From a virus, in IMG/VR virus record IMGVR_UViG_3300022752_000416, positions 1 to 22,723 of that record: DNA of 22,723 nucleotides; one strand, written 5' to 3'. Under the pieces are notes generated by a model, which was given only the letters and a program-made list of their open reading frames with translations, was not told the origin of the DNA and ran no database searches. Shown in pieces: positions 1-21,477 of this stretch; within the stretch, counting starts at the first letter, position 1; the number at the start of each line of letters is the position of its first letter. A program made the position numbers and the translations under genes.

Positions 1-259
1 CACTGCGCCCAAAGTTGAACATGGAACTCACGCCCTGCCCAGGCATCGCGCCCACCTTCTCAATTACGACGTGCGCTTCATTGCGCGGATACCAGCCATC
101 CAAAATATCCACTAAGGTCACCGCTGAAATGTGGCTCTTCATGGTCTTGCCTGACGCTATCTTGAGCGTAGGCATATCCACTACAGAGTCCAGCACTCCA
201 TCCTCAAAGAATGCAATTGCTCCGCTGATACCTGGGTCAATGCCGATAACAAAACTCAT
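1..259 (-). CDS. RuvC-like Holliday junction resolvase, partial (C-terminus outside window)
   Basis: Reads leftwards from ATG 259-257 and is still open at base 1, so 86 N-terminal residues are visible. The protein begins with a beta strand and the signature GIDPGISGAIAF, where the Asp is the first metal-binding acid of the RuvC/RNase H fold. A second strand, HVVIEKVGAMPGQG, supplies the catalytic Glu, and SSMFNFGRS follows as in phage RuvC-like nucleases. The family cuts four-way and branched DNA, in phages to resolve replication or packaging intermediates. The start overlaps the stop of the upstream HTH gene in an ATGA, so the two are probably translated together. The later catalytic acids lie off the window, so activity cannot be confirmed. 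The family assignment is strong; whether it is a true resolvase or a related debranching nuclease is not settled. Confidence 0.88.
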   Translation of the reverse strand, partial: MSFVIGIDPGISGAIAFFEDGVLDSVVDMPTLKIASGKTMKSHISAVTLVDILDGWYPRNEAHVVIEKVGAMPGQGVSSMFNFGRS

Positions 260-486
260 GCCTGGCTCTCCTTCTGTAGCGCCAGCAACCTGGCCTCCAC
301 CAGGGCGTCGCAAGCCTCTTGCAGATTGATGACTGCCGAGTACAGTGGAACGACCTTGCCGGTGGACCAGCGGCTCACCTGGGCCTTATCGATGCCTGCC
401 GCGTATGCGACATCGCTTAGAGTGAAACCTGACCTCTCTGCTTTCTCGCGGATTGTTCTGATTGCTTGTTGTGTAGTGGATTCCAT
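256..486 (-). CDS. Small XRE-type helix-turn-helix DNA-binding protein
   Basis: A 76-residue protein if started at ATG 486-484. A start at ATG 516 would add ten residues but has no ribosome binding site, whereas AAGGAG (minus strand, about 506-501) lies 14 bases before ATG 486, which is rather far. Residues about 17-50 look like an HTH: TLSDVAYAAGIDKAQVSRWSTG has the usual S/T-L-x-D-x-A-x-x-A-G...Q-V-S-R-W pattern of Cro/CI/XRE proteins. The rest is a short helix rich in Ala and Leu. It overlaps the ruvC-like gene by four bases (ATGA) and sits on one side of a divergent intergenic region with inverted repeats, so autoregulation and control of the rightward early operon is a reasonable inference. 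No dimerisation or protease domain is present, which argues against a full CI repressor; a Cro-like role is more likely. Confidence 0.72.
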   Translation of the reverse strand: MESTTQQAIRTIREKAERSGFTLSDVAYAAGIDKAQVSRWSTGKVVPLYSAVINLQEACDALVEARLLALQKESQA

Positions 487-625
487 GATTAGATTATCAT
501 CTCCTTGTTGACGCATTCTACACCGAAAAGTCTAGGTGTTTTCCCTAATGCATTTCGCAACTGCTGTTTGTGATGTAGTAGTCAACAGATATATGATGCG
601 CCTGTCATCAACAACCGGAGTAAAT
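487..625. promoter_or_regulatory. Divergent promoter/operator region between the HTH gene and the rightward early operon
   Basis: 139 bases without a convincing gene separate two outward-facing transcription units. Rightward, TTGTGA (568-573) and TATGAT (592-597) with an 18-base gap resemble a sigma-70 promoter, followed by CCGGAG (615-620) five bases before ATG 626. Leftward, TAGAAT (minus strand, 520-515) is a good -10 but has no good -35. An inverted repeat ACACC-N10-GGTGT (520-539), interleaved with GAAAA (525-529) and TTTTC (539-543), lies just upstream of that -10, where an operator would sit. The HTH protein encoded next to it is the obvious candidate ligand. Promoters were read by eye, so the exact elements are tentative. 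Confidence 0.42.
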
Positions 626-1711: not shown

Positions 1712-1938
1712 TATGCCCAGAATGCAAAGCCTGGACCCGCGTCCTAGAGACCAGGCATAAATACGACAACGAAGTTTATCGTCGGTATGAGTGCGCCAAT
1801 ACGCACCGGTTCTCAACGATGGAGAAAGTGAAACTCAAAGAGGTGAAGAATGCAGATAACAGCAACATTCCAAGACGAACAGGAGGCGATCAAAGCGATC
1901 TACTCGGGCTACGCCTGGCAGACCCTGCAAGAGATTAA
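1708..1938 (+). CDS. Zinc-ribbon protein resembling the NrdR/Ogr N-terminal domain
   Basis: A 76-residue frame beginning at ATG 1708. MICPECKAWTRVLETRHKYD and RRYECANTHRFST follow the layout of the NrdR zinc ribbon (CPxC, then V-x-x-[ST]R, then R-R-x-E-C, then RF-[ST]T-x-E), and also recall Ogr/Delta-type phage regulators. The visible ligands are Cys3, Cys6, Cys29 and probably His33, in place of the usual fourth Cys. The NrdR ATP-cone domain is absent, so it is a stand-alone nucleic-acid or protein binder rather than a full NrdR. The last 29 residues overlap the next gene in another frame and look unlike a fold, being low in hydrophobic residues. The functional protein may therefore be essentially the first about 47 residues with a disordered tail. 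Confidence 0.62.
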   Translation: MICPECKAWTRVLETRHKYDNEVYRRYECANTHRFSTMEKVKLKEVKNADNSNIPRRTGGDQSDLLGLRLADPARD

Positions 1939-2041
1939 TGAAGTGCTGCGCTCAAATAGAAAACACGGCCTACCTTTTGAGCAGACCGTGTCTCAAATAC
2001 AGGCATCTGTGAACGATGCCTTGGCGCTGATTCCGGATTAA
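1850..2041 (+). CDS. Unknown small helical protein, 63 residues
   Basis: ATG 1850 lies three bases after GAGGTGAAG, a usable ribosome binding site inside the zinc-ribbon gene. The sequence MQITATFQDEQEAIKAIYSG, then YAWQTLQEINEVLRSNRKHG, then a C-terminal helix SQIQASVNDALALIPD, is balanced, amphipathic and protein-like, better than the overlapping frame over the same bases. It ends at TAA 2039-2041 and shares a TTAA with the stop of the opposing acidic gene. No domain recognised. It is the last gene of the rightward cluster; no room exists for a separate terminator between the converging units. Confidence 0.66.
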   Translation: MQITATFQDEQEAIKAIYSGYAWQTLQEINEVLRSNRKHGLPFEQTVSQIQASVNDALALIPD

Positions 2042-2328
2042 GCGGCCTCGGCTTCTTCTTCCTCTTCGTCGTCGTATTCTTCTTCGTCGTCGTATTCTTC
2101 TTCGTCGTCGCCCCAATCTGCCTCTTCGTCTTCAACCAGCAACCACTCGCCGGTCTCTTCGTTCAGCCAGTACCAAGCGTCGTACTCAGCGTCGAACCAG
2201 CAGTAGCAATCTGCCTCGTCGTCGTACTCGTACTCTTCGCCATCTTGAAAGCAATCGACTAACGATTCGCAATCGCTGTTGATTTCTACTTCGGTGGAAT
2301 TGTTGATGATAAATGTGAATGAATACAT
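2038..2328 (-). CDS. Hyper-acidic protein without basic residues, 96 residues
   Basis: ATG 2328 is preceded by AAGGA seven bases away, and that binding site contains the stop of the upstream metallophosphoesterase gene, so the two are coupled. By direct count the protein holds 42 Asp/Glu and no Lys, Arg or His. The N-terminus (MYSFTFIINNSTEVEINSDC) looks like a small beta element; the middle is rich in Tyr, Trp and Cys (ADCYCWFDAEYDAWYWLNEE), and the end is an Asp/Glu/Tyr repeat (EEEYDDEEEYDDEEEEE). The charge and the aromatic spacing recall phage DNA-mimic proteins that block host DNA-binding enzymes, or acidic chaperone-like tails. No known anti-restriction family can be named from sequence alone. 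The acidic end is encoded by an 18-base tandem repeat. Confidence 0.72.
   Translation of the reverse strand: MYSFTFIINNSTEVEINSDCESLVDCFQDGEEYEYDDEADCYCWFDAEYDAWYWLNEETGEWLLVEDEEADWGDDEEEYDDEEEYDDEEEEEAEAA
2063..2110. repeat. 18-base tandem repeat encoding Asp/Glu/Tyr
   Basis: The plus strand from 2063 to 2110 is a perfect period-18 sequence of about 2.7 units, each with the core CTTCGTCGTCGTATT. On the coding (minus) strand one unit gives Tyr-Asp-Asp-Glu-Glu-Glu. Such a tract can gain or lose whole units by slippage without shifting the frame, which would lengthen or shorten the acidic tail of the hyper-acidic protein. Confidence 0.85.
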
Positions 2329-2338
2329 GGTGAAGTCC

Positions 2339-3307
2339 TTAAACGTTGATGATTTGACCGCGAAACTCTACCTGATCGTCAGCCCACTTATGAACCAACT
2401 CAGGCCACAAAATCCTACCATTTTTGAATGTCAGGACCGCAAATCCCGACCGGTGGTTCAGAGGATTCCCTTCTCCATAATCAAACTGTGGGCCATAGGG
2501 TTCGGCAAGCGTTCCAGTATCTACGCCATACCTATTTCCCTTGTAATCAGCAAATGGCGTTACCTTCAGCGAGTGCAGATGGCCGGTGACAATAGATATT
2601 CCAGCGTTAACCGTGTTGTTGTGGGCGGCGTGGATGCCGGATCTGTAGCGGTGCTTGATGATGCAGTCCGGTGTAGGCCAGACAGACCAGGCAAACTCCC
2701 AGGCTGGGAGATGGTCCTGCAACTTGAACCCATGCACCTCACGGTACTGAGGAGCCTGGGACGCCAGCTTGTTGGCGAATCTGCTGTCGTGATTTCCCCA
2801 AGTAAACAGCAGCTTTACATTGTGCCTGGCTGCCTTGGCCGTTTCCTCAATCTCGCCAAGATGGGCCTGCACCGCCTTGAGTTCTTCTATTACGCTAGGA
2901 GTCTTGGACCATCCCAACGGGTCGTGCCTGCTGATAGTAGCCCCGTCGAATGCATCTCCATTAGAGATGACTGCGTGCGGCTTGAGTTCTTTGATTGCCC
3001 AAAGCAGGCCACGGTATGCGGTGGTGTACTCGCCAGGCCAGAAATGCGCGTCACTGAAAACGATTATGGTCTGGTCGAGGATGCCGAGATCCACTCGGTT
3101 CAGCGACGTCTGGATTGGCTGATACTGAGAGTATTTTTGCGACCTCTCATCAAATCCAATCAATGGCTGGTTGGTATCCTTTTCAATTCTGCGCCGTCGA
3201 TTATTGACAGAACGCTCAGTAACATCCAAGTGTTCAGCGACTTTAGAGCAAGATCCAAAACGCTTCCAGACATTGATAAACTCTTCACGGGAAACTTTAG
3301 GTTGCAT
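2339..3307 (-). CDS. Metallophosphoesterase with N-terminal helix-turn-helix
   Basis: Start ATG 3307 has GGAG five bases upstream; the ATG at 3340 has no such site. The 322 residues comprise an N-terminal HTH-like segment (about 8-40, SREEFINVWKRFGSCSKVAE then HLDVTERSVNNRRRR), a linker, and a calcineurin-like phosphoesterase domain from about residue 80. The two-metal motifs are complete: FSDAHFW (Asp86, His88), SNGDAFDG (Asp118), WGNHDSR (Asn172, His173), GIHAAHNN (His226/His229) and TGHLHS (His243, His245). The family cleaves phosphodiester or phosphomonoester bonds; phage members are often called nucleases or DNA repair exonucleases, but the substrate here is unknown. The HTH suggests DNA targeting. 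Its stop codon lies inside the ribosome binding site of the acidic protein gene. Confidence 0.86.
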   Translation of the reverse strand: MQPKVSREEFINVWKRFGSCSKVAEHLDVTERSVNNRRRRIEKDTNQPLIGFDERSQKYSQYQPIQTSLNRVDLGILDQTIIVFSDAHFWPGEYTTAYRGLLWAIKELKPHAVISNGDAFDGATISRHDPLGWSKTPSVIEELKAVQAHLGEIEETAKAARHNVKLLFTWGNHDSRFANKLASQAPQYREVHGFKLQDHLPAWEFAWSVWPTPDCIIKHRYRSGIHAAHNNTVNAGISIVTGHLHSLKVTPFADYKGNRYGVDTGTLAEPYGPQFDYGEGNPLNHRSGFAVLTFKNGRILWPELVHKWADDQVEFRGQIINV

Positions 3308-3357
3308 GGTGACTCCACAAAGTTGCGTGGAATCTAACACTTATTGATGTAATAGAT
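3308..3357. promoter_or_regulatory. Short divergent intergenic region with inverted repeats
   Basis: Fifty bases separate the leftward metallophosphoesterase gene from the rightward winged-helix gene. It contains CCAC-N8-GTGG (3315-3330) and ATCTA-N16-TAGAT (3332-3357), the second reaching up to the start of the winged-helix gene. Two DNA-binding proteins flank it, so these are candidate operators. I cannot identify convincing -35/-10 pairs in either direction, and the winged-helix gene has no Shine-Dalgarno sequence here. Confidence 0.3.
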
Positions 3358-18884: not shown

Positions 18885-19505
18885 TTAACCGAAAGACTTG
18901 GCGCGTGACTTCAGCTTACCGCCGCTAGTCGCTCCGCGCTCATCTGCAATTTGCAGTTCCTCAATACCTCGTTGGTACAGACTGGACCACACTTGAATTC
19001 TTGCATCATCCTGTAGGTAGGGTGCAGCCTGGAGCAGCGAACCGTACAAATACACGTCAGGCGCTTTTGTCAGCAGCCAGTTGGTGGTGTTGGACGTGGA
19101 TAGCTTGCTGAGTTTGCTGTAGTAGATCAACTCGCCGGTGTAGCTTGAATCAGGGATTGGGACAACGCGGATCTGAGAACCGACTACGCCAAAGAATTTA
19201 GGTTTACCGCTTGACGTGTAGACAGTCAGCAAGTCATCCAGGCTATCGATGGTCTCAAACTGCAACGGCGTGACAGGATTGGTGTCCATCTTGAACGTCC
19301 GCGCCTCTAGGAAGTCGCCTGGCGTTGCGTTGTACTCAGCATCAATGGTGGCCGTGGCACGGGTAATCATCTGGGTCGTGCGCAGAGTACGCTCCATCTG
19401 AGCCTCGGCCAGAGATACAAAGTCGGTGATGGCAGACGTGAGATCGCTACGGTTGAGCCAATCGGCGACCGAGGCTTTCAGTTCAGCGTAGGTGCTAAGT
19501 GCCAT
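18885..19505 (-). CDS. Head-to-tail adaptor protein (SU10-type), 206 residues
   Basis: ATG 19505 lies inside the end of the glycosyltransferase gene (11-base overlap), with AAGG nine bases before. The pattern MALSTYAELKASVADWLNRS, SLAEAQMERTLRTTQMITRA, TPGDFLEARTFKMDTNPVTP, ELIYYSKLSKLSTSNTTNWL, APDVYLYGSLLQAAPYLQDD follows the adaptor proteins that sit under the portal ring in SU10-like and related short-tailed phages: helical N-terminal half, a central beta part and a final helix with W-x-x-L-Y. Position after portal, scaffold and capsid genes fits. It would dock the tail to the portal. Confidence 0.78.
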   Translation of the reverse strand: MALSTYAELKASVADWLNRSDLTSAITDFVSLAEAQMERTLRTTQMITRATATIDAEYNATPGDFLEARTFKMDTNPVTPLQFETIDSLDDLLTVYTSSGKPKFFGVVGSQIRVVPIPDSSYTGELIYYSKLSKLSTSNTTNWLLTKAPDVYLYGSLLQAAPYLQDDARIQVWSSLYQRGIEELQIADERGATSGGKLKSRAKSFG

Positions 19506-20160
19506 GCTCTGCCTTTTCCTTCTCGATGTCGCGCATCATCCAGGTATGGTCGTGCTTGAATTCAAAAGTCCCGATGTGGCCTATCTCTTTGCTCACGTCG
19601 TGGTCTATGTAGATTTTATACCCTGCTGCTTGCGCCTTCCGGCAGAAGAAGATGTCCTCACCGATGTAGCCACGCTTGTCGGTACGCCAGGGAGTCTCGA
19701 ACCAAGGTTCTGTCAGCTTCTCAAAGACGTTGCGCTTGATTAGCATCACGCCCATGCCGATGCTGCCAACTTCCTCGATGCCGGTGGACTCTGGCATGGT
19801 GTAGACCAATTCGCGCTCGCCATCTGGCCCATACTTCTGCGCAGTCGGGCCGGTAGGGATTCTCCGGCGTGCGCAGTTGGTCGCCACAATGTCCAGGTCG
19901 TGTTTCAGCAGGCGCTCAACCATGTCCTGCGGGAACGTCATGTCGGAGTCAATGAATAGGATATGGGTGCATCCTTCGCCCATCGCATCCAGCGCCAGAT
20001 CAGCACGCTGGTTCTGGATAAGCGTACCCTGCATGATCTTCAAACTGACTGCATCTGTCGTGTTCAGCGTGTGGTAGCAGACCATATTCACCAGACAGTA
20101 AGTGAAATTGGCGTGAACCATGTCACGGGCTGGCGTGCAGACTGCAATGTAGTTATTCAT
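19495..20160 (-). CDS. GT-A family glycosyltransferase, 221 residues
   Basis: ATG 20160 overlaps the upstream stop (ATGA). The start MNNYIAVCTPARDMVHANFT is the first strand and nucleotide-binding loop typical of GT-A folds. CTHILFIDSDMTFPQDMVER carries the DxD metal motif (Asp71, Asp73), and GYIGEDIFFCRKAQAAGYKI contains the GED segment (Glu168, Asp169) seen before the last helix of GT2-like enzymes, followed by HDVSKEIGHIG with a candidate metal His. It would transfer a sugar from a nucleotide sugar; the acceptor is unknown. Being embedded between the capsid and adaptor genes suggests it modifies a virion protein or acts when these are made. No membrane span. Confidence 0.82.
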   Translation of the reverse strand: MNNYIAVCTPARDMVHANFTYCLVNMVCYHTLNTTDAVSLKIMQGTLIQNQRADLALDAMGEGCTHILFIDSDMTFPQDMVERLLKHDLDIVATNCARRRIPTGPTAQKYGPDGERELVYTMPESTGIEEVGSIGMGVMLIKRNVFEKLTEPWFETPWRTDKRGYIGEDIFFCRKAQAAGYKIYIDHDVSKEIGHIGTFEFKHDHTWMMRDIEKEKAEHGT

Positions 20161-20514: not shown

Positions 20515-21477
20515 TTACGAAGTAATCAGGTCAGCAGCCAAACCGTGAGCGTTCTCGGCCAGCACCTTGTGGCCCCACTCCACCAGCAACATACGCTTCT
20601 CAGCGTCGCCGGTCTTAGCGAGTTCAACTTGCTGGTAAGGACGCAGCACAGTCATCTTGGCGTACTCGGGATCCAGCACCCAGGCGTCACGTTCACGTTG
20701 GAACCTGTTCGCAATAACGGCCACGGTTCCGAAATCGCTAACGTAAAGATCAACCGCGCCGATCAAAGTCGCTGGCTTTTCACCGCCATTGATGTTGAAA
20801 CGGCTGGAAGCGATACCAGAGAAACCGCTGACGCGCTGCTTGTTAACAGGACCAGTCATAAGGATCTTTGGAGCGCCGCCAGCAGACCACACTTGCTGAA
20901 TCACATTCTTGAGAATGGTCTCAGTAAAGGTACGGACGTTACCGTCAGTACGGGCGCTGTTTGGCAGCGTGGTGTACGACGGGTTTGTGCCGTTGGTCTG
21001 CATATCTACGTTGGTTTTGACATACGCGCCCAGAGATGCCGTACCGCGTGCGGTGCTGGTGCTTCCAGCAGCAGCCACTGCACCGTTAAGCATGGTGAAC
21101 TCTTGGTCACGTTTCAGTTCGGCGCTACGCTTGGCGATCTGGTAAGCCAGTTCGCTGCGACGGCCAGCCTTGTTGACCACCTCTTCAGTCGCGGACAAGA
21201 TGATGGTCTTGCGCGAAATCTGAGCGTAGTTTTGCAGGCGAACGGTTGCGGTAACAGCGTCAAAAGAGGCGACATCGTCACCCTCAATCTGCTTGTTGGC
21301 TGCGGCTGCGGCCAGTGTGTCGGTCTGATATTCAAACAGCGAATTGCTGATTGACTCGCGACCGATGTTGCTCATGTAAGGAGTTTCTTCGGGAGCGATA
21401 TTGGTGATGATGTTGGACAGATCTTCACGAATACCTTTGGCATCAAAGGTCGTGAAAGTGTTAGTTACGATAGTCAT
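20515..21477 (-). CDS. Major capsid protein (SU10/DUF5309-like), 320 residues
   Basis: ATG 21477 has GAG in GTGAGTACACC as a weak site. MTIVTNTFTTFDAKGIREDL, SNIITNIAPEETPYMSNIGR and FEYQTDTLAAAAANKQIEGD are characteristic of the DUF5309/SU10-like capsid family (HK97 fold); ISRKTIILSATEEVVNKAGR, SELAYQIAKRSAELKRDQEF and the C-terminal DPEYAKMTVLRPYQQVELAK, TGDAEKRMLLVEWGHKVLAE continue the match. Length near 320 is typical. It follows the scaffold gene directly and precedes a strong terminator, the usual arrangement for a gene needed in hundreds of copies per particle. Strong call. Confidence 0.9.
   Translation of the reverse strand: MTIVTNTFTTFDAKGIREDLSNIITNIAPEETPYMSNIGRESISNSLFEYQTDTLAAAAANKQIEGDDVASFDAVTATVRLQNYAQISRKTIILSATEEVVNKAGRRSELAYQIAKRSAELKRDQEFTMLNGAVAAAGSTSTARGTASLGAYVKTNVDMQTNGTNPSYTTLPNSARTDGNVRTFTETILKNVIQQVWSAGGAPKILMTGPVNKQRVSGFSGIASSRFNINGGEKPATLIGAVDLYVSDFGTVAVIANRFQRERDAWVLDPEYAKMTVLRPYQQVELAKTGDAEKRMLLVEWGHKVLAENAHGLAADLITS

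Follow-up and report, generated by a model that had tools for sequence, protein, structure and literature searches.

What would a phage gain from a protein of 96 residues in which 42 are acidic and none is basic? Such a protein is encoded in the 22,723-nt stretch of DNA analysed here (the window), and an earlier note on this DNA had put it forward as a candidate DNA mimic, with an inhibitor or partner of the adjacent phosphoesterase as a second possibility. The window (22.7 kb) is part of a phage genome and encodes scaffold, endolysin and virion proteins as well as a major capsid protein (20515-21477); no near DNA match to it was found in INPHARED. The features around the acidic gene are as follows.

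2038..2328, minus strand: acidic protein gene, 96 aa; ATG at 2328, stop TAA at 2040-2038
2251..2328, minus strand: variable N-terminus of the short form, residues 1-26; pN/pS 0.53; predicted hairpin plus short helix, low confidence
2131..2250, minus strand: conserved core, residues 27-66; four predicted aromatic-rich strands with acidic turns
2041..2130, minus strand: acidic tail, residues 67-96; predicted disordered
2059..2110, minus strand: 18-nt tandem repeat (DDEEEY units), with a copy number that differs among relatives
2339..3340, minus strand: metallophosphoesterase gene, immediately upstream across a 10-nt gap; not an obligate partner
1850..2041, plus strand: convergent 63-aa gene, a neighbour outside the system

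Recounting the minus-strand frame at 2038-2328 gave 26 Glu, 16 Asp, 17 Phe, Trp or Tyr, 4 Cys and no Lys, Arg or His, in agreement with the composition given in the earlier note, and the computed net charge is about -42 at pH 7. The in-frame repeat described at the end of the protein was recovered as well, as 2.9 copies of an 18-nt unit with a 97% match (2059-2110); close relatives, e.g. L003 and L004, carry fewer copies. The gene had also been described as coupled to an HTH-phosphoesterase gene. The coupling and the enzyme assignment agree with the 10 nt between the phosphoesterase stop and the acidic-gene ATG and with the matches of the enzyme (2339-3340, minus strand) to Metallophos (E=1e-6) and phrog_221 (1e-28), but the HTH part gave only sub-threshold Pfam matches, the best with E=0.01. 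At the other end of the gene, the stop of the acidic gene overlaps that of the convergent 63-aa gene in the TTAA palindrome at 2038-2041, and no terminator-like site was found in the window between the two operons. A 352-codon open frame antisense to the phosphoesterase gene (2279-3337, plus strand), also open in a few relatives (cluster c118), can mislead simple longest-ORF calling. Elsewhere in the window, a glycosyltransferase-like gene lies among the head genes (19495-20160, minus strand; phrog_34859, 2e-9), and a small HTH protein (256-516, minus strand), whose PHROG matches are CII/repressor-like (best 3e-5), gives a hint that the window phage may be temperate.

Relatives of the acidic protein were found in IMG/VR with a protein query (61), a short-form profile (115) and a long-form profile (144), and the best 80 of the 115 and the best 80 of the 144 were carried forward. 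The 155 gene entries correspond to at least 108 DNA-distinct loci, as judged from at most 350 nt of sequence at each. A divergent second form, which first surfaced in a control search, occurs at 39 loci in the IMG/VR scan, 32 of them distinct. No relatives were confirmed in bacterial and archaeal genomes (two contig scans, 84,980 genomes); none was found among plasmids and none was confirmed in INPHARED by tblastn, searches in which matches may be masked by BLAST low-complexity filtering, and one INPHARED tblastn search gave weak matches only, in head-tail proteins. Pfam, NCBIfam and PHROGs offered no convincing family match for the acidic proteins. The best PHROG match, phrog_21303 (E=0.0029, 4 of 15 members), is of unknown function and may be compositional, and the best PDB profile match, a pneumococcal choline-binding repeat (E=4; common YDxxYxAWYYL), was judged to be chance. 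We found no description of such a family in the open-licence literature. One record, L094, carries two different acidic genes (1009-1398 and 2967-3347), each near a phosphoesterase gene, which may reflect duplication, recombination or misassembly.

Judged by its pattern of substitutions, the acidic ORF is a real gene under purifying selection, since pN/pS across 38 short-form sequences is 0.29 overall; the value is 0.18 for the core, 0.53 for the N-terminus and 0.24 for the tail. Composition was counted in the 91 unique relatives with a C[YF]CW core, 14 ORF rows without the motif being left aside. These relatives have 0 to 5 Lys, Arg or His residues, a D/E fraction of 0.32-0.48 and a net charge of -26 to -49; 18 of the 91 lack Lys, Arg and His altogether and 50 lack Lys and Arg. 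The complete absence of basic residues in the window protein is thus partly chance and is not conserved in the family.

The 108 loci were grouped by gene neighbourhood. In type A (49 loci), the type of the window, the acidic gene lies on the same strand directly after the phosphoesterase gene, at a spacing of about 10 nt, and in type B (31 loci) it lies on the opposite strand, convergent with the phosphoesterase gene, with 53-120 nt from the enzyme match to the gene end. In type C (26 loci) it follows a different major capsid gene and faces an HNH-endonuclease gene within 200 nt in 25 of the 26. The remaining 2 of the 108 loci are incomplete. Among the 39 loci of the divergent form, 21 genes follow the phosphoesterase gene, 7 are convergent with it, 7 follow the capsid gene and have the HNH gene, 3 have only the HNH gene visible and 1 has none of these. 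The HNH endonuclease thus faces the acidic gene at the capsid site in the divergent form too, and it may drive the spread of the HNH/acidic-gene pair by homing. The capsid protein of the window is nearest to that of a spring-water phage (63%), a Sinorhizobium phage standing at 50%, and the type C capsids are nearest to that of DSL-LC04 (90.7% identity), a metagenome-assembled phage from a lake, for which a gammaproteobacterial host is listed (PMC10611076). From such freshwater neighbours we infer that the family is carried by lake phages.

Several lines of evidence indicate that the acidic gene moves. In three named relatives of the type C phages, DSL-LC04, HTVC023P and Pag-Yong1, no acidic gene was found next to the capsid gene; the next gene there encodes a cement, hypothetical or minor-capsid protein. 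Type C loci carry, beyond the HNH gene, a gene (c16) whose product matches the DSL-LC04 cement protein with up to 37% identity, and the capsid-site loci therefore have an insertion between genes, capsid and cement, that are adjacent in DSL-LC04. The type B locus L134 and the type C locus L135 have a single stretch in common, 358 nt at 97.8% from the -10 box to the gene tail, and their remainders (10.9 and 7.3 kb) gave no match to each other. In a tree of the long forms (55 of the 57 type B and C rows, length at least 90), in which many forks are open because the alignment has few columns, the gene has to switch site 5 times, with no fewer than 4 of the switches forced by well-supported branches. 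Both the L134/L135 pair and the tree point to horizontal exchange.

Upstream of the type B and C genes we found a leader composed of the -10-like box TANGAT, a few nucleotides, a hairpin of 5-6 bp and a T-rich stretch with a Shine-Dalgarno GGAG or GGGG before the ATG. Scored at 107 of the 108 loci, this leader is present in 31/31 of type B, 26/26 of type C and the single unclassed locus, and in 0/49 of type A; the window subgroup therefore has no such leader, its genes closely following the phosphoesterase gene. A search of both strands of these loci, 1.92 Mb in all, gave just 60 arrangements of cassette plus ATG, which leaves about two at most that do not precede family genes. When one version of the leader pattern was scanned without protein information against 2.9 million IMG/VR viral contigs, all 34 matches preceded a family member; the automated motif test scored 33 of the 34, the frame of the other (L165) being cut by the contig end with its 87 visible residues those of the family. 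A looser pattern of hairpin plus Shine-Dalgarno matches many sites ahead of other genes, hence the -10 box is needed for specificity.

The hairpin itself covaries. In an alignment (A5) of 29 of the 40 unique leaders, near-copies having been dropped, 97.1% of cells are paired and three pairs are changed on both sides. Of 500 shuffles none matched the hairpin for paired cells, for cells changed on both sides or for the covariation score, while 15 matched it for pairs changed on both sides and 106 for further pair types. The divergent form adds the compensatory stems GTAGC/GCTAC, GCGGC/GCCGC and GCGGA/TCCGC, and has the -10-like box and hairpin at 36 of 36 loci with sufficient upstream sequence. 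No Rfam match was found for L139, L134 or L068. The scan of L139 flagged the hairpin as an intrinsic terminator, but in many sequences the T-run lies several nucleotides from the stem, so that a 5' stem-loop is the more probable reading. 5' stem-loops can stabilise mRNA. Terminator-like sites flank the L139 gene, one between the capsid gene and the cassette and one after the gene, so that it reads as a self-contained unit. The promoter scan found no canonical -35/-10 pair at this gene, and its promoter is therefore proposed from the conserved -10-like box alone.

With its dedicated leader, and with only the stretch from cassette to tail shared by L134 and L135, the gene reads as a mobile moron, and we regard it as very probably a mobile, self-expressed cassette. 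Phage morons include autonomously transcribed counter-defence genes. Like them, the genes of this family are inserted between neighbours of a related phage and have their own -10-like box, a terminator-like site and a record of horizontal exchange; the family differs in its two recurrent insertion sites and in a conserved leader hairpin that, in our pattern scan, preceded this one protein family only. That the gene has repeatedly entered unrelated phages at two fixed sites argues for a strong general benefit, of the kind typical of counter-defence or host-takeover genes.

The conserved part of the protein is its core. In the main form (residues 27-66) it reads roughly EEYxYDEDx-[CV]xCWYDEE-xxAWYWLNEETGEWLLVED, and an example from the divergent form reads EEYEFDDEGYAYWFDEENEVWYWYDEESDDWYECED. 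Across the main-form alignment (A3, 60 hand-picked sequences; A4 comprises 49, also hand-picked) Y33, Y35, D36, W44, D46, W52, Y53, W54 and W62 are invariant, and E31, Y33, D36, W44, D46, W52, Y53 and W62 are invariant across 15 chosen members of both forms. Sixteen positions are at least 90% Asp or Glu in the 60 aligned main-form relatives (15, 21, 29, 31, 32, 36, 37, 38, 46, 50, 57, 58, 61, 66, 67 and 68), and since the two residues swap freely at several of them, the conserved property at the acidic positions is charge and not residue identity. A near-pure underlying unit is seen in L428, YVYDEEADV-WYWYDEEADV-WYVYDEESDD-W. Metal binding through the CxC motif was rejected, because no fewer than 8 of 107 unique ORFs have Val in place of the first Cys and the divergent form lacks CxC.

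AlphaFold predicted a four-stranded sheet for the window protein (strands 33-36, 41-46, 51-56 and 61-64, pLDDT mostly 75-85) with modest overall confidence (mean pLDDT 66, pTM 0.46). The N-terminus was modelled with low confidence as a hairpin and short helix (pLDDT about 49-54, residues 1-20), and the tail is predicted to be disordered, with pLDDT about 50 from residue 71. The earlier note had named full disorder as an outcome that would speak against its proposal; what the prediction gives is a folded core, with disorder in the tail. In other relatives a longer N-terminal domain replaces that of the short form, and the long-form model places a low-confidence hairpin and helices ahead of the core. 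Strong negative charge thus lies within a folded domain, the fold being a modest-confidence prediction. No significant fold match was found in the PDB (Foldseek best E 1.6; Ugi, 1udi_I, at rank 22 with E 4.1), and the best hit of the VIA fold search was an artificial protein (Z 3.5); a known fold may have gone unmatched in these searches. Matches in BFVD were to uncharacterised phage proteins only. The best of them, A0A6J7WGB1 (BFVD/UniProt) from an uncultured Caudovirales phage, is 59-70% identical in the aligned part and is annotated merely as uncharacterized.

T7 Ocr and PBS2 Ugi are small, extremely acidic phage DNA mimics, and the window protein resembles these two, together with T7 gp5.9, lambda Gam and SPO1 Gp44, in size and acidity. 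The contrast drawn in the earlier note, that such mimics usually keep some basic residues, proved unsafe: SPO1 Gp44, which targets RNA polymerase, has an acidic middle region (residues 56-122) that mimics single-stranded DNA and is reported to be 57% Asp or Glu with, as in the window protein, no Arg, His or Lys (PMC8208478). Gp44 would be the nearest functional parallel. T7 gp5.9 (pI 4.0) displays its acids on the surface and shows that DNA mimics need have no common fold (PMC9836394), and AcrIIA15 is reported to combine a dsDNA-mimicking domain with repression of its own transcription in the same protein (PMC10901769). The window protein differs from the known phage DNA mimics in its predicted four-stranded sheet, with no significant match, and the acidic family differs from them in that its cassette is mobile and brings along a conserved hairpin leader.

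Nucleic-acid mimicry is our best single guess for the function, with a probability a little short of even. The window gene would be a short-form member of a phage moron family. Host RNA polymerase would read the cassette on its own schedule, probably early or constitutively, so that soluble polyanion is made in quantity; the small sheet, with its patterned acids, may then fill and block the surface by which a host protein binds DNA or RNA. Candidate targets are a defence enzyme, RNA polymerase or a nucleoid protein, and specificity could come from the aromatics or from the variable N-terminal domain. The conserved acidic pattern, the predicted folded core and the mobile, autonomous moron support the original DNA-mimic candidate, whereas the fold searches gave it no match. 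The modest model confidence also weighs against mimicry, as do the many aromatics among the identity-conserved residues, which may point to peptide binding, and the position of part of the family behind late (capsid) genes; the lack of the cassette in the window subgroup and of a canonical promoter pair in L139 weigh against the cassette. The full statement, a mobile moron cassette whose product blocks a nucleic-acid-binding surface of the host, we hold to be possible, at somewhat under an even chance. A new mimic fold built of aromatic-x-aromatic-Y-D-E-E decapeptides, on a mobile gene with a dedicated leader of -10 box and covarying 5' hairpin, is a bolder and rather doubtful proposal.

The main rival to mimicry is peptide binding by the aromatic face, in which an OCRE- or WW-like small sheet binds a proline-rich or other linear host peptide and the acids serve solubility or affinity. 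The prominence of aromatics among the identity-conserved residues, a weak OCRE match in Pfam (E=0.73, 1 of 15 members) and the three decapeptide units of L428, with their aromatic-x-aromatic-Y-D-E-E pattern, speak for it. OCRE is described as having a unique beta-sheet fold and aromatic residues repeated in octamers (PMC5127646), and the RBM5 domain shares with the family short aromatic repeats in a small beta fold. The family units are decapeptides of period about 10, not 8, and far more acidic, the single-member OCRE match is not significant, and the conservation of a charge pattern with Asp/Glu exchange would be left unexplained, which makes this reading unlikely. A disordered polyanion that soaks up Ca, Mg, polyamines or nucleoid proteins, with no specific mimicry, would suit the composition of the tail, its variation in repeat copy number and its predicted disorder, but the core is more constrained than the tail (pN/pS 0.18 against 0.24) and its acid positions are fixed; such a sponge seems still less probable.

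Two further explanations rest on where the gene is found. One of its two sites lies directly behind the major capsid gene (26 of 108 loci; 7 of 39 in the divergent form), which suggested a virion-associated or assembly protein. This is improbable given the terminator-like sites of L139 on both sides of cassette and gene, the cement gene directly after the capsid gene in the related DSL-LC04 and the predominance of the phosphoesterase site. A partner or inhibitor of the metallophosphoesterase, the second possibility of the earlier note, could account for the enzyme gene adjoining the acidic gene at 80 of the 108 distinct loci, on the same strand at 49 and convergently at 31, and for the tight spacing in the window type. 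The earlier note had asked whether relatives always sit beside the enzyme; 26 loci proved to lie behind a capsid gene instead, so co-occurrence is not invariant: the enzyme is present in 14 of 14 type A or B records and in 0 of 16 type C records searched, although records may be fragments. Conversely, 80 enzyme relatives with 53-64% identity include 70 with at least 700 nt downstream, and just 2 of these 70 have the acidic gene; no relative of it was found in the stretch examined beside 4 of 4 inspected INPHARED enzyme relatives. These counts led us to reject dependence on the phosphoesterase and, with the opposite-strand arrangement of type B, leave partnership or inhibition highly improbable. 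Mimicry of nucleic acid is the reading we retain.

The non-coding leader by itself now suffices to recognise this abundant, unannotated phage gene family. If the leader hairpin is a control element, it would be an unusual protein-specific leader that moves together with its gene. It might respond to the protein or to the protein's target, and gene and switch would then be passed on jointly among unrelated lake phages. Should the protein indeed be a mimic, its core would be a minimal and new fold by which DNA-binding proteins are blocked.
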